Source of the DNA: a virus
Virus record (IMG/VR): IMGVR_UViG_3300010388_000195
Coordinates: 1 to 43,656 of that record
Length of the DNA stretch: 43,656 nt
Reading direction: 5' to 3' (one strand)
Shown here: positions 3,348 through 43,656 of the stretch, in pieces
Numbering within the stretch: position 1 is the first letter of the stretch
Layout of the letters: the number at the start of each line of letters is the position of its first letter
The notes under the pieces: generated by a model
Told to the model about the DNA's origin: nothing
The model's database searches: none
What the model saw: the letters and a program-made list of their open reading frames with translations, nothing else
Translations under genes and position numbers: made by a program

Positions 3348-3647
3348 TTACCCTATGTATGCCACTAGGTACTTTACACCGGCTACAGTGACATAGTCAC
3401 TTGGCCCATAAAACTTAAGGGGAGCGTGAAGTAGTTTCGTTACCTTCGCTTCCTCCACAGTTAGCACTGCGAACCTGGCTTCTGGTTCGTGATTGTCTAT
3501 GTAGGCAGTCACTACTCCATCAGTGGAAACCTTCGCTTCCAGTGAAGCAGCGTCACGCAGGGGGAAGCCCTTGGGCCGGCCCTGTCTCTTGTCGGAATTA
3601 TTAACGGCAGCAGTCAGTGCCTTGATGCGTTCAGTGGGTGTAGTCAT
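3348..3647 (-). CDS. Hypothetical protein with AT-hook-like motif, 99 aa
   Basis: The N-terminal part contains KRQGRPKGFP (about residues 19-28), a GRP core like an AT-hook, which binds the A+T-rich minor groove. The C-terminal two thirds look beta-rich. I chose the ATG at 3647 because its leader GCACCCACTAACATG resembles that of the gene at 1425; an open frame extends further upstream to 3854 but over repeat DNA. Function is unknown, but DNA binding is a reasonable guess. Confidence 0.65.
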   Translation of the reverse strand: MTTPTERIKALTAAVNNSDKRQGRPKGFPLRDAASLEAKVSTDGVVTAYIDNHEPEARFAVLTVEEAKVTKLLHAPLKFYGPSDYVTVAGVKYLVAYIG

Positions 3648-19437: not shown

Positions 19438-20110
19438 TTACTTTGTCACGGGCTTTATCCCAGAGAACCCACAGACCAAACGACAAAGCGATGCCGATGG
19501 CTGTGAGGACGATGGGTAGGAAGTAGGGAGAGCCTTGGATGACCGGGATAGACCCAGCCACGGTGGACAGGAAGATGAGGGTAGCGCCAGTCTTCCACGA
19601 CAGGAAGGCACAGACGACAGCCCCCAGGACGAACATCCCGCCAGCCAGCATAGTCCAGAAATTGCGGTCAGCGTCGGTCTTGACCTTCTCCACCTCTTGG
19701 GCGAGCTGCTCGTTGCGTAGTTTAAGGGCTTTAATCTCCGCAAGATTGCGGACATTGTCGGACTCCATCTTATCCCACATCTTGTTTACTTCTGCTTGTA
19801 GACCCTTGGCGTAGGCAATCTGAGCCTTGTAAGCCTCTGGGTCGCCCTTGGAAGCCCGTTCACGGGCGAAGGCGATGTCAGCCTCAGACGGGGCAGGAAG
19901 ATAAGCCAGAGCCACCTTTCCTTCAGCCTTTACCACCTCCGGCTCGTCAGCCCTCTCCACCGCCACGGTTACGGCAGCCGCCGCCCGTGCTTCAGTGGTA
20001 TCAATCTTGTCCCCCAGTTTACTAACATTGGCTGGATCGGTAGCCGATACCGGGGGCTTGTCCGTAGTCACACAGGAAGCCAAGAAGACGATGCAGAATA
20101 GGTACTTCAT
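19406..20110 (-). CDS. Spanin-like lipoprotein with C-terminal membrane spans, 234 aa
   Basis: The N-terminus has a lipoprotein signal with canonical lipobox LASC (cysteine 13), so it would be anchored by lipid, probably in the outer membrane. Residues about 95-150 form a coiled coil (KALKLRNEQLAQEVEKVKTD). Three hydrophobic segments follow at about 151-171, 174-190 and 195-216. Outer-membrane anchor, periplasmic coil and inner-membrane spans resemble a u-spanin, which fuses the two membranes at lysis. Normal u-spanins have one C-terminal span, so this is enlarged. The gene lies next to the holin candidate. Confidence 0.6.
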   Translation of the reverse strand: MKYLFCIVFLASCVTTDKPPVSATDPANVSKLGDKIDTTEARAAAAVTVAVERADEPEVVKAEGKVALAYLPAPSEADIAFARERASKGDPEAYKAQIAYAKGLQAEVNKMWDKMESDNVRNLAEIKALKLRNEQLAQEVEKVKTDADRNFWTMLAGGMFVLGAVVCAFLSWKTGATLIFLSTVAGSIPVIQGSPYFLPIVLTAIGIALSFGLWVLWDKARDKVNESSSPSQPD

Positions 20111-23100
20111 TTGTTGCGGTAGCGATTGGCGGTCTCGGATTCGGCTTGGCGCTGGATGGTCGTCTTCTGGCTCTGGAGGTAGGTGTTGGGGGTCATCTGA
20201 CGCATCACCTCTCCCTGCAACTTCTCAGCCTCTTCCTTGGTCTTCGGGGCTTTGGAGGTTGTCTGCCCACGGAGACGCTGTTCCTGGACGAGCATATTGT
20301 TGTACATAGCCACGGCATTCTCCGTGCGGTACAGTTCCTGTCCGTTCACACCATACAGTCGGTAGACATATCTGGGCTTACCATAGTTATCCAAGCCTTG
20401 GTAGACGGCGTGGAGTTGATTGCCCAGTTCGGTCTTCCAGACATCATTGATGGCTCGCATCACTTCCTGCCCTGCTCGCATCTCACGGTTGAGATACTTG
20501 TTGAGATCGGGGGCGGCTGCACGGGCTTCTGGAGAACCAAGAGCCAAGGCTACACGGGCATTGCCTTCGGCTTGCTGGACAAGTGGGCCGGTCTGCTGTT
20601 GAGCGTTCAACGTCTGGGTGACGATGGGCTTGCGGTCAAGGATGCGACGGACGACCAATCGATTATCCCCGGCAACTGGCAAGCCAGCAGGGTCAACCCC
20701 TAGACTGCCACGCAGGATGTTGCCGATGTCAAGTTCTGGGGTATTAGAACGAAGTGCCGTAGCCAAGGCATTGGCATCCTCCACCTCACGCTCCTTTGCA
20801 CGAGTCTCGATGTCACGACGCAGTTGCTCGGCTTGCAGCTTGGCTTCATTGTCACGACGCTCCTGTTCAAGTTTCTGTTTCTCACGCAGTTTCTCGGCTG
20901 CCTCCTTGTTCTTGCGTTCTTCTTCCAACAGGCGATTCCAGTCGTCATCATACTTCTTCTTGTCCGCATCGATACGACGCTGTTCGGCTTCAATACGACG
21001 TTGTTCGGCAATCTGGTTCTTCTTGTCGATGCGAGCCTGGTTCTTGGCATCTTGATCGACTAGGCGCTGGAAGTCCGCTTCGTACTTAGCCTTTTCCTTT
21101 TCGATACGCTTTTGTTCCTTTTCGTATACGGCAAGTGCTTCGGCATCTGCCTTGGCTTGGGCTTCGGCTTGCTTCTTCCATTCCTTCTGTTGAGCCTGTG
21201 TTTCCTTGAGCAAGGCGGCTTCAGCCATTGTGCGTTCCTTCTCGACCTTCTTCCGGGCTGCTTCTTCCGTGGCATCATTGAGAGCCTTCTCACGGGCAAC
21301 ACGGGCCGCCTCATCCTTGATTACCTTCTCGGCATACTGACGGGCATCAGCCATATTCTGAGCATCAAGGATGGCATCGACGGAAGCCTTCTGAGCCTCT
21401 TCGATGGTTCGTGCGTTGTTGGGTACGTTCTCACCATCAACATAGATGTCGTACGTTCTCCCGTTGAACTCGTGAATATATGTATTCGGGATGTTCGGGT
21501 GAACGTATGATGCCGTAAGGGTGTTGGCTGGGTTAACCTTTAGGAAGTTGGCGCGAAGGCCGGCAATGACCTCCTTGCTACGCAAAGCCCAAGCACCAGG
21601 TGCCATATTGAACTGACCATAGATGGTCGCAGTCTGGGACATTTGGGTGGTAGTCCCGGTCTGGGACAACTCGCCCATCGAGGAGACGGACAGGTTCTCG
21701 TACGGGAACGCAAGACCACGGACGGCTTGATTGGTGAAGGTCGTAGGGTTGACCACGACACGCCCATTGCGAACCGTCATCCCGTGAGCAGCACGAAGAA
21801 CCGTCAAGCGAGCCTCACCACGCGCCCGATCTCCACGACCAAGGCTGATAGCGGAAGGTTCGATGATGGCACTAGCCGGAGCCTGGAGGGTGGAAGGCGA
21901 AATCGGCTCACCGCTGTTGTATCGCTGCATCCACTCGTTAGCCATCGTGTAGAACTCCTTGTCGTCGTTGAACAACTCACGGATGGTCGTCGGGTTGAGT
22001 TCACGTCCGTTGACATCCTTGAGGTAGGTGAAACTACCGTCTTCATTATAAACACGGACACCCTCGGAGAAGATGATGTTCTTGTTGTCGTGGAATGCGG
22101 TGACGTTGAAGACCTTGGTCGTGAGGTTGTTTCTCGGAGTATACAGACCCTTCTTCGTAGGGGACAGTTTCTCGTACTCGCTCTCGGAGATGACCCGGTT
22201 CGGTTCGGTGTTGTGCCAGTACTGGACTTGAGTCTCGAAGTACAGCGGGACGAACACTCGGTCAGAGACGTACTGGAAGCCGTCCTTCATATAGTAACGA
22301 CCTTCGGAATGCGTGTCCTTGCCGTGCGAGAACAGGTTCACATAGCGACCAGTGATGATAGGACGCTCGCCACCTTGCGCCATAATCTGAGCCATCATCA
22401 CCATATTGTTGCGGATGGTGTCTGGCAGACCTTGCGAATTGGCTAGTGCGTTGATTTCAGCTGCCGTTGGCTTACCCCAGATTGCCGTCTTAATTCCACC
22501 CTTTGGGCCAGCCTTATCATTCGTGAACGTAAGACCACGCTGGGACTCCGGTACATTGGTAAGCGTATCCAGGACGACTTGTGCGTGACCACCAATGACC
22601 ACGCCAACGGGAGGAAGTGTGGATGGGTTTACGACAGGCGAAGGAACAGGGGTTGTCGGAGCAGGAGCAACTGGCTGGATCGGAACTGCCGTAGGCGTAG
22701 GTGCAGGAGCAGTAGGCGTAGGTGCAGCTGGCTGAACTGGAGCAGGAGGGGGCGGTGGGATTGGAGTCCCAGCCGGAGTCTGCGTTGCTGGCTTCGGAGT
22801 AGGCGTGACAGGGGTCGGCGCTGGAGCAGTAGGGGCTGGTGTAGCGGGAGCAGGGGTAGCCGTGCCAGTAGGAGCAGGAGTAGGGGCAGGAGTGCCAGCA
22901 GGAGGCGGGTAGACACCGGGAACGATGGGTTGACCATTGTAGGTGTTAATCGTCGTAGTACCAGGTGCTGGCTGACCAGCCGTAGGTGCAGGAGTAGGAG
23001 CAGTCGGCTTGCCTTGAGGCTTGGGCGGGTCGATGCCTGGGATTGGAGTACCCGTAGATTGGTCGGTGAACCAAGGAAGACCAGCAGAGTTGAGCAACTC

Positions 23101-26100
23101 AGCCTGTTGGGTATGGTTCATCTCAGAGAAGTTTAGTTCTGTGAGACGGGGAGAACCCTTACCGCCAGTCATCCGATAGATGGCATCGTAGAGGCTATTG
23201 ACCACAGGGTCACGGACGATTTCCCCACGGCTATTTAGGAAGAAGCCACGGACAGTACCATCGGACTGCTTGATGAAACGCATCCCAGACTCACGCAGGG
23301 ACTGCACCATCGATGCTGTGTACTGACGAGGGAAGATGCCGATCTGTGGGTCGAACATCGAAGCGAACTGCAAACGCACGTTATCCGTGCTGAGTACATC
23401 GTACAGGCTACGCTCACCGACCATAATGCGACGCAGGGTATCAAACGCCCCAGAGCCACGCACATTGGTCAGACCCTTGTTCGGGCCGACACCACCGTAA
23501 CCGATGGGCTTTGTGGAGTCGATTGTAGCCATCCACCAAGCCATAGCCTCACGGGTGAAGCGTTCGATTGGCTGGCTTACGCCTGTGGACTCATACTGCT
23601 TCTGGGCGGCTGCAAGTTCATCACGGAAACGCTTACCGGCCTCAAGCGTAAGGCTGGCTGCATAGGCATCGAAGAACGCAGTGCGAGCAGCTGGGGACAT
23701 ACGACCACCCTCTGATGCAGAGTTCCACAGCACCTTGTTGAGTTGAGGGATGACGGACTTGACCGCATCGTGGTGGAGCAACGCTTCCCAGGCTTCGTGG
23801 TTGACGGTGAAAGCGTCTGCCTTGCTGATGTCGAAGTACACGCTACGAGCCTGTGGGCCGGACTCGATGTACATACCCTCACGAACCATCGTCAACTGAT
23901 TGCCAGCAGCGTTGGTACGGGTTTCTCCCTTACGGAAGGTGATGGGAGCATCGACATTCCGGGAAGCCTCCGACAACTGGGCGCGGAGTTGATTGCCTTC
24001 TGCGGAATAGACCTGGAGTTTGACGTTCTCGTTGTTGAGATCGTTCTTCAGACGCTCAAGGACTACGGATGTCTGTTTGCCAGCGGCCTTTAGGTTAGCC
24101 TCTTCAACGGAGATTTGACCGCTGATACGCTGGATGAGACCGACGGTTGCCTTGGCGCGACGCTCGGATTCGTTGACCTTGGTCTGGAGGTCATCACGCT
24201 TTACGATGTTCTGCTTCTTGGCTTCGATTTCCTTTACGCTCTTCTCGGCGTGGATTGCAGCTTGGGTAGGAGTCATACCCATTGCGATGGCTTCATCACG
24301 GATACGGGCTACATCCTTCGGGTCTGCATTGACCGTGTAGTTGGCGATCTGCATCTCCTCCGGTGTGACGGCAAAGACACGACCACCCGTGGCATCATAG
24401 GAGCGACGGAAGGAATCAGCACGACGCAGATACTCGGCAAAGTCCTTTGAGCCATTGAGCCATTCACGCACCTTGGCGGCCTGTTCTGGCTGGAGACTTT
24501 CAAGGATACCAAGTGATTCAGCGATAACATCCTTGCCACGAAGAGCCTCATTGCCCTTCTGCGTGAAGCGATTGGCTGTCTGGGTGACTCGATTGAGTCC
24601 AGACATCGAGATGGACGCAGCAGCCCCGATGCCGAAGCCTGTCCCTGCGGCTGCTTGGTCATTAGCCCAAGCCATAGTCATACCGACTGTACCACCGTGA
24701 ATCACGTCATCAATGGCTACGTGGAAACCGGCCTGTGCAGCCGCATCAAACCCGGACTCAGACATCCAGTTGAGCATATTCATCTCGGACTCGATGGCTG
24801 CTCGTTGGGCTACATCCTGCGTAAGACCAAGTTCCTTACGGGTTGCGTTCAAGGCAGACTGGATCGCAGAACCGCTGACTCGTTCTCCAGAAAATGCAGC
24901 CTTGGCAACACGACGCTGAACCTTGAAGTAAGTCTCAGCCTTAGCGCCAGCAACGGTAAGCACGTCTGGACGCATCATCCCTCCAATACCAAAGATGGCA
25001 AGACCAGCACCGTAGCCCCAGTCGCCACCCTGCACGGCACTCCAAGTTCCGATAGCACCGCCAGCAGCGACGGTAGTCCAGCCAGAGGTCAATTGGGCTG
25101 GCTGTAGTGCAATGAGGCGACGGAGAGACCATTTACCCAAGGCTCGTTCCTTACCGCCTTCAGCCATAAACTCACCCATCTTACGGACACCTTTGCCAAG
25201 AACCTCGCCAGGTGCGCCAACGATGTAGTTTCCAACGAAACCGCTGATGACACGCTTAGGGCCGGTCATACCAGGCATAGCCTTCTTGACCTCGGCGGCG
25301 TGGCTGATGGCATCTGCATTCAACTTATTAATGCGGGTGACCATATCATCCGACAGACCAGATGTGTTGATCGTGGTGCGAATCTTCTCGGATGCCTTCT
25401 TCCCTGCATTTGTAAGCATATCTTCTCCAGACTGAGATAGGCTGATGAGCATAGCCTCCTCTTCTGTGAGTGTGCGACCAGTGGCACGATACACGTCGTC
25501 GATGACCTTCGTGATGCTGTCCTTGGGGATGGACTTGTTGACGTTCTTGATTTCCGTTAGGATTGCCTTGCCCTCTTGGACAAGAGCAGCTCCACGGGCT
25601 GTGATTTCAGCGGGAAGGGTAGCCTTACCAGCCAAGCCAAGAGCCTTGCCCAACATACCCGCGCCACCAGCGACAAGGGTAATCGGGTCATAAATCATTG
25701 AAGCCTGTTCTGCCAACTTCTCGTCACCGTATGCGGTACGAGCCTCCTTCGCCCGATTGGGCATACCAAGGGCATCATACGCACGGGCTACGACATTGTC
25801 GTGAGAGCCAGTAACATTACGGTAGTTGCTCGACCAAGTCTTGATGGCTGCGTCGATTTCCTCGTCGCTCTTGTTCTCCCAGAAGTCATCCGTGAAAGCA
25901 CCGAAGGCTGCCTTTACAGCGGAGATTCCAGCACCAGCAACCTTGGTCTGACCCGTGTATCTGTCGCCAAGAGCCTCATTGATGAACAGGAACGAATTGG
26001 GGTCTGTAGAGTCGCTGACGAAGTGCTTGAAGTTGACCGTAGACTGAAGGACGCCAGAACCAAACGAAGCCAACTTCTCGAATGGCTTGCCCGGAATGAA

Positions 26101-27204
26101 AGCACCATCTTCACGGAGAGCCTGGAGTTCTGCGATTGCGGACAGGAACTCTTGGTTGCTCGGCTCGTTTGCATTCGTGTAAGCATCCAGTGTTCTCATC
26201 AACGCCTCTGAATTGCCCATACGCTGGACTTCCTTGAGGCGCTCAATCGGACGACGGGTCGCAGCGGAAGCACGGACGATTACCTGTTGAGCCTTCTCAC
26301 GCAGTGCCGAATCGTTGCGGTAACGCTGGGATAGGTACTCATCAGCACCGCTGAACGGATTGACCGCATCAACGAACCCGGCAATAGCCTCGACACCATC
26401 CTGCACGAACACGGCAGCTGCATTGAACCCGTCACCCATAATGGAGGTACTCTGGGTGGAGTGGAAGCGAGCAGCGGCTCTGAAGGCATCACGCTGTTCT
26501 TGGATGGAAAGACCCTGCAAGTAGTCCGGCCCTTGCTGTGAAACGACACGACCAACTTCAAGTTGATTGTCTACCGGGGCGATGGACTTACGGATACGCG
26601 CCACAAGGCTAGTGCCGATGGAACGCTTCTGTTCGGCATATCCAGGCTGGGTCAGTTCAGCGATAACTTCGGATGCTACGGCTGTCGGTACTTTGTTGTT
26701 AGGGTTGATGACAAACTCCTGTAGTTCGTCGTCGCTCATACCGAATGCCTTCGGATGACGAACACCCTTCAGCAAGGACTCCTCCATCTTCAACTTGGAG
26801 AACGGGAGCAACTTGTTCGCTACGATCTGGGCATTGTGTTCGGACTCCGGGATTTTGACCTTAAGCACACCCCAAGCAGCATCATTGACTTGCTTGGTAC
26901 GCTCCTCGGAGTTTGCGGACAACTGCGTGGCAGGAATGCCGAAGATAGCCATCGAGGTATCATTGTTGTAGATACCCACGCTGGTGGCTTTATCCCAGAG
27001 CCAAGAGTTCATATCACGAACACGGGTAATCTTGGTCACCTCGTATTCGGGAGTGCCTGGGATGTTCTCCGGCAACTCAGCGCCCTTGCCCATCCAGTTA
27101 CCCTTATCGTCTCTATACAACCACGGTTGGGTCGCTAGATCGATTACGGGTGCTTCTGGTTGAGGGGTTGTTGGGGCAGTGAGTGCGGGTGTTTCTTCAG
27201 CCAT
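20107..27204 (-). CDS. Giant internal virion / ejection protein candidate, 2365 aa
   Basis: Longest gene in the window. The organisation is a large N-terminal helical region (1-1380) with Gly/Ala-rich hydrophobic patches (about 710-745 and 825-865) and a ProAlaThr-rich linker (about 1385-1525). After a beta-rich region (about 1530-1900) it is followed by a long Lys/Glu/Ala coiled coil (about 1950-2150) and a polar C-terminus. Such giant proteins directly before two other virion proteins resemble podovirus internal core proteins that are injected with the DNA. I saw no intact lysozyme, protease or polymerase motif. It might also be a large polyvalent protein delivering enzymatic domains. Confidence 0.7.
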   Translation of the reverse strand: MAEETPALTAPTTPQPEAPVIDLATQPWLYRDDKGNWMGKGAELPENIPGTPEYEVTKITRVRDMNSWLWDKATSVGIYNNDTSMAIFGIPATQLSANSEERTKQVNDAAWGVLKVKIPESEHNAQIVANKLLPFSKLKMEESLLKGVRHPKAFGMSDDELQEFVINPNNKVPTAVASEVIAELTQPGYAEQKRSIGTSLVARIRKSIAPVDNQLEVGRVVSQQGPDYLQGLSIQEQRDAFRAAARFHSTQSTSIMGDGFNAAAVFVQDGVEAIAGFVDAVNPFSGADEYLSQRYRNDSALREKAQQVIVRASAATRRPIERLKEVQRMGNSEALMRTLDAYTNANEPSNQEFLSAIAELQALREDGAFIPGKPFEKLASFGSGVLQSTVNFKHFVSDSTDPNSFLFINEALGDRYTGQTKVAGAGISAVKAAFGAFTDDFWENKSDEEIDAAIKTWSSNYRNVTGSHDNVVARAYDALGMPNRAKEARTAYGDEKLAEQASMIYDPITLVAGGAGMLGKALGLAGKATLPAEITARGAALVQEGKAILTEIKNVNKSIPKDSITKVIDDVYRATGRTLTEEEAMLISLSQSGEDMLTNAGKKASEKIRTTINTSGLSDDMVTRINKLNADAISHAAEVKKAMPGMTGPKRVISGFVGNYIVGAPGEVLGKGVRKMGEFMAEGGKERALGKWSLRRLIALQPAQLTSGWTTVAAGGAIGTWSAVQGGDWGYGAGLAIFGIGGMMRPDVLTVAGAKAETYFKVQRRVAKAAFSGERVSGSAIQSALNATRKELGLTQDVAQRAAIESEMNMLNWMSESGFDAAAQAGFHVAIDDVIHGGTVGMTMAWANDQAAAGTGFGIGAAASISMSGLNRVTQTANRFTQKGNEALRGKDVIAESLGILESLQPEQAAKVREWLNGSKDFAEYLRRADSFRRSYDATGGRVFAVTPEEMQIANYTVNADPKDVARIRDEAIAMGMTPTQAAIHAEKSVKEIEAKKQNIVKRDDLQTKVNESERRAKATVGLIQRISGQISVEEANLKAAGKQTSVVLERLKNDLNNENVKLQVYSAEGNQLRAQLSEASRNVDAPITFRKGETRTNAAGNQLTMVREGMYIESGPQARSVYFDISKADAFTVNHEAWEALLHHDAVKSVIPQLNKVLWNSASEGGRMSPAARTAFFDAYAASLTLEAGKRFRDELAAAQKQYESTGVSQPIERFTREAMAWWMATIDSTKPIGYGGVGPNKGLTNVRGSGAFDTLRRIMVGERSLYDVLSTDNVRLQFASMFDPQIGIFPRQYTASMVQSLRESGMRFIKQSDGTVRGFFLNSRGEIVRDPVVNSLYDAIYRMTGGKGSPRLTELNFSEMNHTQQAELLNSAGLPWFTDQSTGTPIPGIDPPKPQGKPTAPTPAPTAGQPAPGTTTINTYNGQPIVPGVYPPPAGTPAPTPAPTGTATPAPATPAPTAPAPTPVTPTPKPATQTPAGTPIPPPPPAPVQPAAPTPTAPAPTPTAVPIQPVAPAPTTPVPSPVVNPSTLPPVGVVIGGHAQVVLDTLTNVPESQRGLTFTNDKAGPKGGIKTAIWGKPTAAEINALANSQGLPDTIRNNMVMMAQIMAQGGERPIITGRYVNLFSHGKDTHSEGRYYMKDGFQYVSDRVFVPLYFETQVQYWHNTEPNRVISESEYEKLSPTKKGLYTPRNNLTTKVFNVTAFHDNKNIIFSEGVRVYNEDGSFTYLKDVNGRELNPTTIRELFNDDKEFYTMANEWMQRYNSGEPISPSTLQAPASAIIEPSAISLGRGDRARGEARLTVLRAAHGMTVRNGRVVVNPTTFTNQAVRGLAFPYENLSVSSMGELSQTGTTTQMSQTATIYGQFNMAPGAWALRSKEVIAGLRANFLKVNPANTLTASYVHPNIPNTYIHEFNGRTYDIYVDGENVPNNARTIEEAQKASVDAILDAQNMADARQYAEKVIKDEAARVAREKALNDATEEAARKKVEKERTMAEAALLKETQAQQKEWKKQAEAQAKADAEALAVYEKEQKRIEKEKAKYEADFQRLVDQDAKNQARIDKKNQIAEQRRIEAEQRRIDADKKKYDDDWNRLLEEERKNKEAAEKLREKQKLEQERRDNEAKLQAEQLRRDIETRAKEREVEDANALATALRSNTPELDIGNILRGSLGVDPAGLPVAGDNRLVVRRILDRKPIVTQTLNAQQQTGPLVQQAEGNARVALALGSPEARAAAPDLNKYLNREMRAGQEVMRAINDVWKTELGNQLHAVYQGLDNYGKPRYVYRLYGVNGQELYRTENAVAMYNNMLVQEQRLRGQTTSKAPKTKEEAEKLQGEVMRQMTPNTYLQSQKTTIQRQAESETANRYRNK

Positions 27205-39763: not shown

Positions 39764-39954
39764 TGGGATGTTGATTTGCTTTCGATATATTGTAAAAGTG
39801 AGTCCTTATGGAAGCGGGACTGGCCTCCAAGGGTTGTATAACACCGGATACTGCCAGATTTACGCAGTTTGTCCAATTCTCGGACATTAATGCCCGTCAT
39901 TTCCTCTGCCAGCGATCTGGAGAGCAGGATTGGGTAGTCTTCCGGGTTACGCAT
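39730..39954 (-). CDS. MerR/excisionase-like HTH protein, 74 aa
   Basis: Residues about 8-50 (LLSRSLAEEMTGINVRELDK then LRKSGSIRCYTTLGG, SRFHKDSLLQYI) match a MerR/excisionase-type winged HTH. Its ATG overlaps the terminase stop (TGATG). A regulator between terminase and portal is unusual. It could be a small terminase-like DNA-recognition protein or a transcription factor; no integrase is present, so an excision function is unlikely. Confidence 0.7.
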   Translation of the reverse strand: MRNPEDYPILLSRSLAEEMTGINVRELDKLRKSGSIRCYTTLGGQSRFHKDSLLQYIESKSTSQCSPKTPDETN

Positions 39955-41564
39955 CAGTATGAGCCGCCTCCCTTGCATTTGAACGCCTGGTCGTCATATT
40001 GTTCGGGCTGAATGGTAGCCAAATACCGCAGACAGTCGATTGGGTCTTTGGATGCTCCCTTCTCACCGTCAGCGCCAGTCCACTCTCTTAAAGAGTAAAT
40101 AAGATTCTCGCAGGACTTGGCGACGTACAGTTTTGGCTCGTTGATGGGAGATAACGGCTGTCCAGGGTCGTGTGCCAGTGCGTCGTTGATGACGGACACG
40201 CCATCGTCGATGCGAATGCCTGGGGCTGGATCGAAAAACATCGGTTCTGGGTCTTCAGCCAGCAGCTCGATAAGGGAACTGCCACCTTCTTGGGTAGCAG
40301 CCTGTGTCGCCCCTGCACGGGGGTCGATACGACGTTCTTCAACGATTTCATCACCTTCAAGTTCTCGGATTAGGGCTTTATAGTCTGCGATGCCTCTTCC
40401 AGCCCCTGCTCGCTGTGCTGGGCCGGCTTTACCGTCAAGTTTGGTGTCTGGTAGCGCCCACTCACCGTAAGAAGCGTCGGGCCACTCACGATAGACGAAC
40501 CACTTGGTGCTTTCGCCCGTTCCGACTGCCCGTAGCCAAAGCATAAACCAGTTTCTCGCCCCGGCAGGGTCAACGACCATATAGTTAGTCCCTTCTTCGG
40601 GGATTTTGTCGTCGTCAATCTCATTGAGGTCACCGAAGCGTGGGAATTGAGCGCCAGCCAGTCCATCAGCCCAGCCGTAGGCTCGGATTTTCTTTTCGTA
40701 CGTGGTTTTGCCGTCCAGAGTGCGACGCAGCTCGTCGAAAGGGTTGTACGGGTTGAACTCGGAGTGAAACCAGACTACCCCGGCATCCTTACCACGGGAT
40801 TTAGCCCGATAAGGCATATGACCGTTGGGAACGCCAGGTACGTGCTGGATTTTCTGGTCAAGGATGCTGGCGACACGGCTTTCCAGCACCTTACAGCCGG
40901 AGATGTACTCCTTTACGACGTTAGTGTAGCCAGAAACCGGGGTGAAAGTGACAAGCAGCTTACCACGTCTGGTAACCACACGATATCTGAGTGTTTCGAT
41001 CCAATCCAGAGGTACAAGTTCGTCGCACCAGATGATATCGCACTCACCACCTTCAATGACTCGTTTTTCTTGGGCATAATTCATAAAATGGCATTGGCTG
41101 CCATTCGGGAAGATGAAAGTACCGTCCGAAAATCCGTTTTTCTGGGAATACTGGATGTTCGTGACGCGCCCTTTCTTCAGAGTCTTGAACTCCGGGGGGA
41201 TATACTTCCAGATTACGTTCTGTTGCATCTGGATCGACGACTGCGAGGTGGTGTGGAGACACCACACACGGGCATTCGGTGTGTTTACGAGTGCTGAAAC
41301 TACCCTTTTGGCAGCCCATTCAGTCTTACCCGCACGATTACCACCCAACACGCACAGTTCCTGGTGGGTCTTAAGGAGATTGTCCGCATCCCTCCAGTGG
41401 AACGGCTCGTAACCGTGGCGATATGGGTCAGTTTTTTCGGCAAGAATCTTTTCCTCACGGATACGCAGTACTTCTGCGAGTTTTTCAGAACCCAGTTTCT
41501 GCTGAAGTACCTTCAACTCCTCCGTCGAGGGGAGTTTGATGACTGGATGCTGGGTGAGTTTCAC
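39954..41564 (-). CDS. terL: Terminase large subunit, 536 aa
   Basis: Packaging motor. Walker A GGNRAGKT (residues 74-81), Walker B DIIWCDE (176-182) and a nuclease-domain motif MVVDPAGARNWF with Asp332 are all present; a C-terminal acidic patch completes the RNase H-like nuclease. The start is GTG at 41564, whose GTGA overlaps the upstream stop; TTG at 41567 is an in-frame alternative. No small terminase subunit is recognised with certainty. Confidence 0.92.
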   Translation of the reverse strand: MKLTQHPVIKLPSTEELKVLQQKLGSEKLAEVLRIREEKILAEKTDPYRHGYEPFHWRDADNLLKTHQELCVLGGNRAGKTEWAAKRVVSALVNTPNARVWCLHTTSQSSIQMQQNVIWKYIPPEFKTLKKGRVTNIQYSQKNGFSDGTFIFPNGSQCHFMNYAQEKRVIEGGECDIIWCDELVPLDWIETLRYRVVTRRGKLLVTFTPVSGYTNVVKEYISGCKVLESRVASILDQKIQHVPGVPNGHMPYRAKSRGKDAGVVWFHSEFNPYNPFDELRRTLDGKTTYEKKIRAYGWADGLAGAQFPRFGDLNEIDDDKIPEEGTNYMVVDPAGARNWFMLWLRAVGTGESTKWFVYREWPDASYGEWALPDTKLDGKAGPAQRAGAGRGIADYKALIRELEGDEIVEERRIDPRAGATQAATQEGGSSLIELLAEDPEPMFFDPAPGIRIDDGVSVINDALAHDPGQPLSPINEPKLYVAKSCENLIYSLREWTGADGEKGASKDPIDCLRYLATIQPEQYDDQAFKCKGGGSY

Positions 41565-41806
41565 CAAGCCTTACAAGACCAGTATCTCGGAGTAGTCTTG
41601 TCCTTGGCGGTGGCGCAGTTGTGCCTTGCCCGGAAACTCTTCCGTCGTGCAGGGATGTTCTTCTTGATCGTCATATTCGGGTCACCGAAACGGACGATCT
41701 TGGCGTTGCCGTTAGCACCCTTGACGTAGACGGCAGACTTCTTCGGGCCGCCTGGAGTGCGGAATGGCTTGTTGAGCGATACGCTTCGACCTTTGTAGTT
41801 TGCCAT
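41561..41806 (-). CDS. Small basic conserved-type phage protein, 81 aa
   Basis: Very basic protein: SVSLNKPFRTPGGPKKSAVY and FGDPNMTIKKNIPARRKSFR. The pattern NKPFRTPGG and GDPNM and RRKSFRARHNC appears, as far as I recall, in small proteins of many marine and podo-like phages next to terminase or head genes, with no assigned role. It overlaps terL by 4 bases. Confidence 0.7.
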   Translation of the reverse strand: MANYKGRSVSLNKPFRTPGGPKKSAVYVKGANGNAKIVRFGDPNMTIKKNIPARRKSFRARHNCATAKDKTTPRYWSCKAW

Positions 41807-42122: not shown

Positions 42123-42194
42123 AGCCTTGGGTCGGAGTCGAACCGACAACCCCATGTTTACAAAACAGGCGCACTGCCATTGTGCTACCAAGGC
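42123..42194 (-). tRNA. tRNA-Thr (anticodon UGU)
   Basis: The 72-base sequence folds into a cloverleaf: acceptor GCCTTGG/CCAAGGC (7 pairs), D stem GCAC/GTGC, anticodon loop TTTGTAA with anticodon TGT, and T stem GTCGG/CCGAC with loop TTCGACT. The anticodon stem has one C-T mismatch. CCA is not encoded. It would supply ACA-reading tRNA to help late-gene translation. Confidence 0.88.
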
Positions 42195-42199
42195 AAATA

Positions 42200-42268
42200 G
42201 AGACGACAGGACTCTCACCTGTACCTCCCCCGCTACGCAGGGGTGTGCATCTGCTAGCACCTCGTCCC
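42200..42268 (-). tRNA. tRNA-like element or degenerate tRNA
   Basis: Spaced 5 bases from tRNA-Thr, GGGACGA and TCGTCTC pair (one G-U) as an acceptor stem at about 70 bases apart. CAGG/CCTG forms a T-like stem with loop TGAGAGT, and CCCC/GGGG makes an anticodon-like arm. The D loop lacks GG and the T loop lacks TTC, and the anticodon-type loop has 8 bases, so a functional tRNA is doubtful. A decayed tRNA gene or another structured RNA fits better. Confidence 0.3.
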
Positions 42269-42550
42269 GAAAAACACCACCCCTCGTCTCTTCGGGGCAT
42301 TACTCACAGCACATACTATCGGGTGACATACTGCCGGTTAAGCACCTTTGGAGGCGCAAGGATCGAGAGTTCCCAACCCTCCGACAAACGGCATCGAGCC
42401 GAACCTATCCTCTATGCTGCTTTCGCTGGACTTCCACCAGCTGCTCCAGCGTCCTGGAGTGGATAAGACTTTCAAAGTGATGACCCTACCTTGTCTTCCG
42501 ACAGCGGGTAGAGCCGTTGTCCGACCAAACTACACCCGCTCCAGCCCGTG
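42269..42550 (-). ncRNA. Structured non-coding stretch, candidate RNA
   Basis: About 280 bases without a supported gene but with several strong hairpins: CTCCAG-4 bases-CTGGAG (42444-42459); AGCGGGT/ACCCGCT with an inner GTAG/CTAC (42503-42540); GGAGG/CCTCC (about 42350-42382); and CGGC/GCCG (about 42379-42391). The hairpin at 42503-42540 begins 10 bases after the stop of the 42551 gene. Possibilities are an mRNA terminator/processing block, a decayed tRNA cluster or a novel phage RNA. Confidence 0.35.
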
Positions 42551-42835
42551 TCAAGCATCCCATTCCGTGGCATTCTCTGGCCCACTCTCCAGGGCTACTA
42601 CCCCGGCTGCAAGAGCAGCTCCCAGTACCGTATGGAAGTTCTCTTTACTGTTGCCACCCCCAAAAGCCAAGACCTTCCACTTGTCCGAAGTCGAGTTCAA
42701 GATAATCACCCCCTGCGGACAATACCCCTTCAACTTGGTCAACGCATCCAGCATCGCCCCTTCCAGCTGCTCGTCGTTGTGGGTAACGACCATAGCCTTA
42801 GCCTTACGCTTCCGCTTCTTCGGCTTGTCGTCCAT
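42551..42835 (-). CDS. Hypothetical protein with basic N-terminus, 94 aa
   Basis: The first 15 residues are Lys/Arg-rich (MDDKPKKRKRKAKAMVVTHN), followed by a compact alpha/beta protein (GVIILNSTSDKWKVLAFGGG) with Gly-Gly-rich turns. The ATG at 42835 overlaps the preceding stop (TAATG). Second gene of the late operon; role unknown, possibly nucleic-acid binding. Confidence 0.7.
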   Translation of the reverse strand: MDDKPKKRKRKAKAMVVTHNDEQLEGAMLDALTKLKGYCPQGVIILNSTSDKWKVLAFGGGNSKENFHTVLGAALAAGVVALESGPENATEWDA

Positions 42836-43555: not shown

Positions 43556-43656
43556 AGGTGTATGGGTAGACCCGCTTGACCCCCCCCCCCCCGCCCCCGG
43601 GGCGCTCCCCCCCGCCGGGGGCCGCGGCCGGGCGCGCCCGGCGGGGCCGGGCCACC
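43556..43656. repeat. Right, degraded copy of 101-bp terminal repeat
   Basis: Aligns gap-free to 1-101. Of 17 differences, seven are A to C and eight are T to G relative to the left copy; none goes the other way. This bias and the extreme G+C content suggest sequencing error at a contig end rather than real divergence. It should not be used as biological sequence. Confidence 0.85.

Follow-up and report, generated by a model that had tools for sequence, protein, structure and literature searches.

A candidate structured non-coding RNA among tRNA-shaped elements at the tRNA-Thr locus of a tailed phage

What occupies the gene-free DNA beside a phage tRNA-Thr gene: the remains of a decaying tRNA cluster, or a phage RNA that has escaped description? 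We considered this question for one IMG/VR virus record of 43,656 bases, analysed at its full length and referred to here as the window, which derives from a tailed phage whose capsid protein is of the SU10 type. The phage belongs to a poorly described group, since the best match of its terminase is 30.5% identical (among 50,697 phage records) and a 2365-aa ORF on the minus strand (20107-27204) has no PHROG match at E 0.001. The right end of the window (43577-43656) consists of long C and G runs and looks like an assembly or sequencing artefact.

The block lies near the head of the packaging and structural genes, with the terminase gene downstream. Transcription on the minus strand would pass through two small ORFs, E1, R, E2 and tRNA-Thr in that order, and 3' of the block follow a small basic ORF, a conserved 94-aa ORF, the terminase gene and the portal gene, the last named from its position and from annotation in weakly similar phages, with no family match of its own. 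The one site returned by a promoter scan (1.3 were expected by chance) lies on the other strand, and the minus strand gave none. The features are as follows.

43281-42835, minus strand: small ORF, upstream, the 5' neighbour of the 94-aa ORF
42551 to 42835, minus strand: upstream gene, an ORF of 94 aa (no Pfam or PHROG match)
42482 to 42550, minus strand: E1, a hairpin element in its own right (9-bp helix with a GNRA cap), the window's divergent version of an element that 6 relatives also carry
42270 to 42477, minus strand: R, a putative structured non-coding RNA of about 208 nt, based on homologues (L034 661-868; L136 10115-10333), pair counts and a covariance model
42200 to 42268, minus strand: E2, a tRNA-like RNA of 69 nt with a homologue at L034 965-1036
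42122/42123 to 42194, minus strand: tRNA-Thr, anticodon UGU (ARAGORN; Rfam RF00005, 63.1 bits at 42123-42194)
39954 to 41567, minus strand: terminase large subunit (PHROG 2, E 1.5e-14), downstream of the block

Much of the layout in the original prediction, which had been made from the letters of the sequence, held up. The tRNA-Thr(UGU) and a tRNA-like element were confirmed to lie five bases apart (gap 42195-42199; ARAGORN and Rfam), and the latter has a T-loop of TGAGAGT instead of the TTC type and a D-loop without GG, as claimed. The gene-free stretch, put at about 280 bases, measures 282 bases (42269-42550) and holds no credible gene; the stop of the upstream 94-aa ORF lies at 42551. The strong hairpins that had been described are present, but folding energy alone beats chance just modestly, with z -1.46 for the whole 428-nt block (7 of 100 shuffles were equally good) and z -2.22 for the 355 nt without the tRNA (3 of 100 shuffles). 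In our analysis, the structural evidence proper is comparative, in the form of compensatory change in homologues, and not folding energy.

Fold and covariation of R

R spans about 208-220 nt in the window and in two other viral loci, L034 and L136. We counted pairs in an unedited MAFFT alignment of these three copies (A3) over helices P2, P3, P8, P4, P7 and a tentative P1, 33 pairs in all. Standard pairs fill 97.0% of the 99 pair cells (33 pairs in the three-way alignment) and 11 of the 33 pairs are changed on both sides, values neither of which was reached by any of 500 shuffles, although the helices were proposed after both sequences had been viewed, which biases the counts in their favour. 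When the partners were slid by 1-3 columns as a control, pairing fell to 33-50%. Three elements of the fold can be placed in the window as follows.

42425 to 42459, minus strand: hairpins P2 (capped by a GACG tetraloop; compensation at 4 of 6 pairs) and P3 (compensation at 2 of 5)
42420-42413 with 42313-42306, minus strand: long-range helix P8 (8 pairs, 5 compensated), which encloses P4 and the variable P5/P6 region
42280 to 42297, minus strand: 3' hairpin P7, with the conserved loop GAAGNGACGA (window and L136) or GAAGAAACGA (L034)

There are no broken pairs in P2, P3 or P8, and P4 and P7 are almost invariant across the R copies. We do not claim P1, which would form a pseudoknot, as proven, since L136 breaks 3 of its 7 pairs. 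P5 and P6, plausible in themselves, lie where the alignment is too poor to count them. The helix list offered three further pairings, namely P0 (CUUU/AAAG), a kissing pair of P2 and P6 and a loop pair of P6 and P7, which no covariation supported and which we left out.

As a separate check, we built a covariance model (R2) from the window and L034 alone. This model matched L136 over its full length (1-208) with 63.7 bits and E 4.4e-20, its sole match in 278,289 bases, with the caveats that P8 had been picked with L136 in view and that the E-values are rough (short calibration). The most conserved parts of R are its junctions and loops (CGAAAG, GGATAGGTY, the TCGAT loop, GTATGTCACCC and GAGTAAYG), as would be expected for an RNA with a tertiary core. 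Because two of the three members, all from metagenome assemblies, are near-identical, the covariation amounts in effect to one comparison, that of L136 with the other pair.

From the compensatory changes, we conclude that the fold of R is under selection, with P2, P3, P8, P4 and P7 kept in three phages. The original prediction was to be given up if homologues failed to covary and the region made no stable transcript, and on the first of these points the 11 compensated pairs speak against giving it up. Its suggestion of an undescribed phage RNA is supported by the existence of diverged homologues with these compensated pairs and no Rfam match, whereas its other suggestion, a decaying tRNA cluster, finds no support for R, which is not derived from tRNA.

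R at the tRNA-Thr locus of related phages

The R copies of the window and L034 are 98.5% identical over 199 nt, in phages whose terminase/portal stretches are 74.8% identical over 2,581 nt and whose terminase third codon positions agree at 54%. L136 has a strongly diverged R directly upstream of its tRNA-Thr, yet on the terminase side its DNA and that of the window agree at about 76% identity. Since R has diverged this far in L136 despite the similarity of the terminase-side DNA, the 98.5% identity would be explained by recent exchange and not by constraint alone. A recent transfer of R between distant phages is thus very probable.

The surroundings of R differ among the three phages. On the upstream side it is bordered by E1 in the window, by E3 (a hairpin described below) in L034 and, in L136, by the tail of a coding sequence. 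Its 3' end is followed after 11 nt by E2 in the window, after 12 nt by a tRNA with an insert in the anticodon loop in L034, and after 18 nt by tRNA-Thr in L136. The end of the L034 contig (IMGVR_UViG_3300021233_000058) carries Illumina-type adapter sequence at about 130-200, some 470 nt from R; the ordered context of the L034 copy (E2, tRNA-Thr and terminase) and the independent copy in L136 argue against an artefact.

We collected relatives by a terminase search (80 loci), a search with the neighbouring ORF (10 more, in overlapping contigs) and a tRNA-Thr sequence scan (37 contigs). The 37 contigs and the window give 38 tRNA-Thr loci, one of which begins at the tRNA, leaving 37 with an upstream side (L094 is the same contig as L034). 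In 26 of these 37 records, an ORF of at least 50 codons touches tRNA-Thr or ends no more than 17 nt from it, while 11 have an intervening element upstream of the tRNA: E1 in seven (window included), tRNA-Gln in one, another short hairpin in one, and R in L034 and L136. The window has both E1 and R, so that R occurs in 3 of the 37 records and is patchily present among the relatives.

Searches for further copies gave little. An Rfam cmscan with 4227 families found tRNA alone above threshold in the window, and no family for R in the window, L034 or L136. A covariance model of R (R1) found no further convincing copy in 119 sources or 26 virus records; its remaining hits, in L021/L137 and L072, span 17-25 nt and score no more than 9.8 bits. 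A 28-mer of R matched the contig of L034 alone. Two 16-mers led to eight more viral contigs (L101-L108) in which the similarity is the word itself or a few bases beyond, and a 20-mer had three matches in genome contigs (L111-L113) with little similarity beyond it. Neither the 356-nt block nor the R of L136 gave more than short weak blastn matches to phages and plasmids; two Pseudomonas plasmid stretches among them lie inside annotated genes.

In cellular genomes, R1 found nothing in the three genomes of L111-L113 and nothing at E <= 1e-4 in 395 genomes from the phylum of L111's genome. It gave five weak partial matches (at most 22.5 bits) in 369 genomes from the class of L113's genome, and the four of these that we examined (L148-L151) all overlap long open frames. 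These searches say little about cellular homologues, because the sample was small and came without a known positive. A limited literature search turned up no description of R.

E2, E1 and other elements beside the tRNAs

Like a tRNA (RF00005), E2 folds as a cloverleaf, with a 7-bp acceptor stem, a 4-bp D arm and a 5-nt variable loop (AGGTA). Unlike a tRNA, it has an anticodon arm of 7 bp sealed to a GUA triloop, and its T-loop, UGAGAGU, lacks UUC. The acceptor, D and anticodon arms are common to E2 and its homologue in L034, and among their 18 arm pairs 3 are compensated on both sides, 4 are changed on one side and none is broken. All three double changes fall in the acceptor, where 7 of 7 pairs form in both copies. 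Both copies also share the triloop and a T-loop without UUC (TGAGAGT and TAAGAGT), and the D-loop GG is present in L034 alone. If the anticodon arm is read as 5+7, position 33 is C in place of U33. E2 is called by neither ARAGORN nor Rfam and, judged by its sequence, cannot read codons as a normal tRNA.

The acceptor pairing has to be set against chance: when the 3' strand of the L034 acceptor was shuffled 100,000 times, 938 of the shuffles still formed every pair, and with this spacing perfect 7-bp pairings arise about 100 times per 87,000 positions. From two copies, the evidence that the acceptor is kept by compensatory change is suggestive. The description of E2 as a decaying tRNA is at most half right, in that E2 cannot decode, but its arms have been held, the acceptor by compensation. 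Overall, R and E2 look like working RNAs and not like decayed tRNAs. Other matches to an E2 pattern, in L095-L097, are AT-rich, come without tRNAs and are unlike E2 outside the pattern, and we judged them to be chance.

E1 is found just upstream of tRNA-Thr in the window and in L004, L006, L007, L008, L052 and L023. Its 9-bp helix holds a GNRA-capped inner hairpin and is often followed by a T run; the main hairpin has two compensated pairs, and one more lies in a poorly supported 5' helix. E3 is a hairpin motif, CAACAGTACC..CGACTC..GGATCGCACCA, that occurs beside tRNAs at L034 608-655, L026 2616-2665, L032 508-555 and L136 10499-10545, with three compensated pairs among the four copies and no Rfam match in the stretches searched.

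Several relatives have odd tRNAs. A tRNA-Ala-like gene at L004 3371-3440 (also in L006, L007 and L008) has a 6-base anticodon loop and no readable anticodon, is otherwise apparently intact (Rfam 34.4 bits) and does not differ among the copies that we compared. The tRNA at L034 871-958 (35.7 bits) has about 22 extra bases as a hairpin inside its anticodon loop, and a related tRNA at L136 10417-10487, called as Glu, has A instead of U at position 33. L052 has a tRNA-like fold on the downstream side of tRNA-Thr (about 3425-3515); its acceptor is 7 bp long (GTAGGTG/CACCTAC), an AAG triloop caps its 6-bp arm, and here too no anticodon can be read.

Readings of the block and comparison with known systems

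We read the block as an array of RNA genes (E1, R, E2 and tRNA-Thr) in which R would be a phage non-coding RNA of about 210 nt, released by tRNA enzymes, acting in trans and exchanged between phages; we put the probability of this reading at roughly 0.6. R would be transcribed together with the neighbouring late genes, and its 3' end would be set by RNase P as this enzyme trims the next tRNA or tRNA-like RNA (in the window, E2) at the 5' end. We infer this maturation from the position of R, 11-18 nt before a tRNA-shaped RNA in all three phages. The released R would then act in trans, with a protein or an RNA of the host or the phage as its target, although the sequence data here fit action in cis as well. 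E2 is most likely a unit for processing and spacing: a retired tRNA that is maintained for having a tRNA shape and not for decoding. Our first guess is a role in host take-over or counter-defence, because R shares its accessory and mobile character with other genes of that sort. A bolder version, which we hold as a tentative possibility, would make the tRNA-Thr site a landing pad for exchangeable RNA cassettes (R, E1, E2, E3 and decoding-dead tRNAs), with R as a new catalytic or protein-binding class, serving for example in counter-defence, whose release is coupled to tRNA maturation via tRNA-shaped spacers.

Other explanations account for part of these observations. R might be a cis element of the late transcript, controlling the tRNA and terminase genes by antitermination, by attenuation or as a leader, and not a free RNA. 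Its place near the head of the packaging and structural genes would suit such an element, as would the GC-rich hairpin that ends R in the window and L034 and is followed a few bases later by a T run. However, the terminator scan does not call this hairpin, L136 lacks the T run, and in 26 of 37 records a coding stop lies within 17 nt of tRNA-Thr with no such element, indicating that the operon manages without R; thus, we consider control in cis unlikely. It is rather unlikely that R represents a mobile DNA element of the non-autonomous kind, with an RNA fold that matters for movement alone. Near-identity over 199 nt in phages that elsewhere agree at about 75%, together with flanks that differ on both sides, is what such an element might leave behind, but R occupies the same site upstream of tRNA-Thr in all three phages, is present in a single copy per record and has compensated long-range pairs and conserved loops, and homologous exchange at the tRNA locus accounts equally well for its movement.

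A self-processing ribozyme that cuts the array beside the tRNA, in the fashion of theta ribozymes, would be in keeping with the constant proximity of R to tRNA-shaped RNA, with the conservation of its unpaired junctions and with the possible crossing of P1 and P8. No Rfam ribozyme model scored above threshold on R, and we regard this explanation as distinctly improbable. The one candidate that appeared, twister-sister, was rejected, as its partial matches scored 14.4 and 15.2 bits in the window and L034, compared to a gathering score of 34, and were absent in L136. That the block is a decaying tRNA cluster without function is very improbable. The loss of decoding and of the TTC T-loop in E2 and the broken anticodon loops of tRNAs in other relatives do look like decay, but R and the acceptor stem of E2 have both undergone compensatory change, which goes against it, and for R, which did not arise from a tRNA, it is contradicted. 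Finally, a missed protein-coding or pseudogene region is exceedingly improbable. A 45-aa ORF with a TTG start does run through part of R (42475-42338), but it is unconserved in L136, and the indels between the window and L136 (16, 1, 7, 11 and 1 columns) do not keep the reading frame. Since indels break the frame and the overlapping ORF is unconserved, we take R to be non-coding.

If R is indeed a trans-acting RNA of a tRNA-linked array, it joins a short list. Structured phage non-coding RNAs are few and mostly of unknown function, and those best known from the neighbourhood of tRNA islands, GOLLD and ROOL, are very large. GOLLD and ROOL have been described as structured phage and prophage RNAs of unknown function, often near tRNA islands, with lengths of about 600-800 nt or more (PMC12286853). 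R resembles them in being phage-encoded beside tRNA genes, and differs in length (about 208-220 nt, compared to about 600-800 nt or more) and in its set of helices. A further hallmark of GOLLD and ROOL is a multimeric cage built of RNA alone. GOLLD and ROOL covariance models found no match to R in the window, L034 or L136 even at E up to 10, and we consider R comparable to them in setting and unrelated.

HDV-like theta ribozymes have been reported beside phage tRNAs (PMC10879173). They share with R the status of a small structured RNA directly beside phage tRNAs; R, however, lies upstream of the tRNA and has no match among the ribozyme models of Rfam, a collection that may or may not include theta ribozymes. 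In the eukaryotic MALAT1/mascRNA arrangement, a longer non-coding RNA obtains its 3' end from an RNase P cut at the tRNA-like RNA that follows it. The maturation proposed for R and E2 would resemble that arrangement by analogy, and the sequences are unrelated.

Phage non-coding RNAs can be prominent, as the most abundant transcript of phage ICP1 is reported to be non-coding (PMC7567579). Changes in the anticodon loops of phage tRNAs have been proposed to confer resistance to host tRNA nucleases (PMC10264068). The dead tRNAs of the phage group studied here would exceed that case, because they cannot decode.

Since R is shorter than GOLLD and ROOL and matches neither of their Rfam models nor any ribozyme model, we place it in a new, small and apparently undescribed family of tRNA-island phage RNA. 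This family would be compact, small enough for synthesis, probing and structure solution. Moreover, the array pairs R with a decoding-dead E2 whose acceptor stem appears to persist by compensation, and so offers a concrete and testable case of whether tRNA shape is used for RNA processing, or otherwise, in a phage. To judge from the patchy presence of R and its recent swap, tRNA loci may be places where phages trade RNAs much as they trade accessory protein genes.
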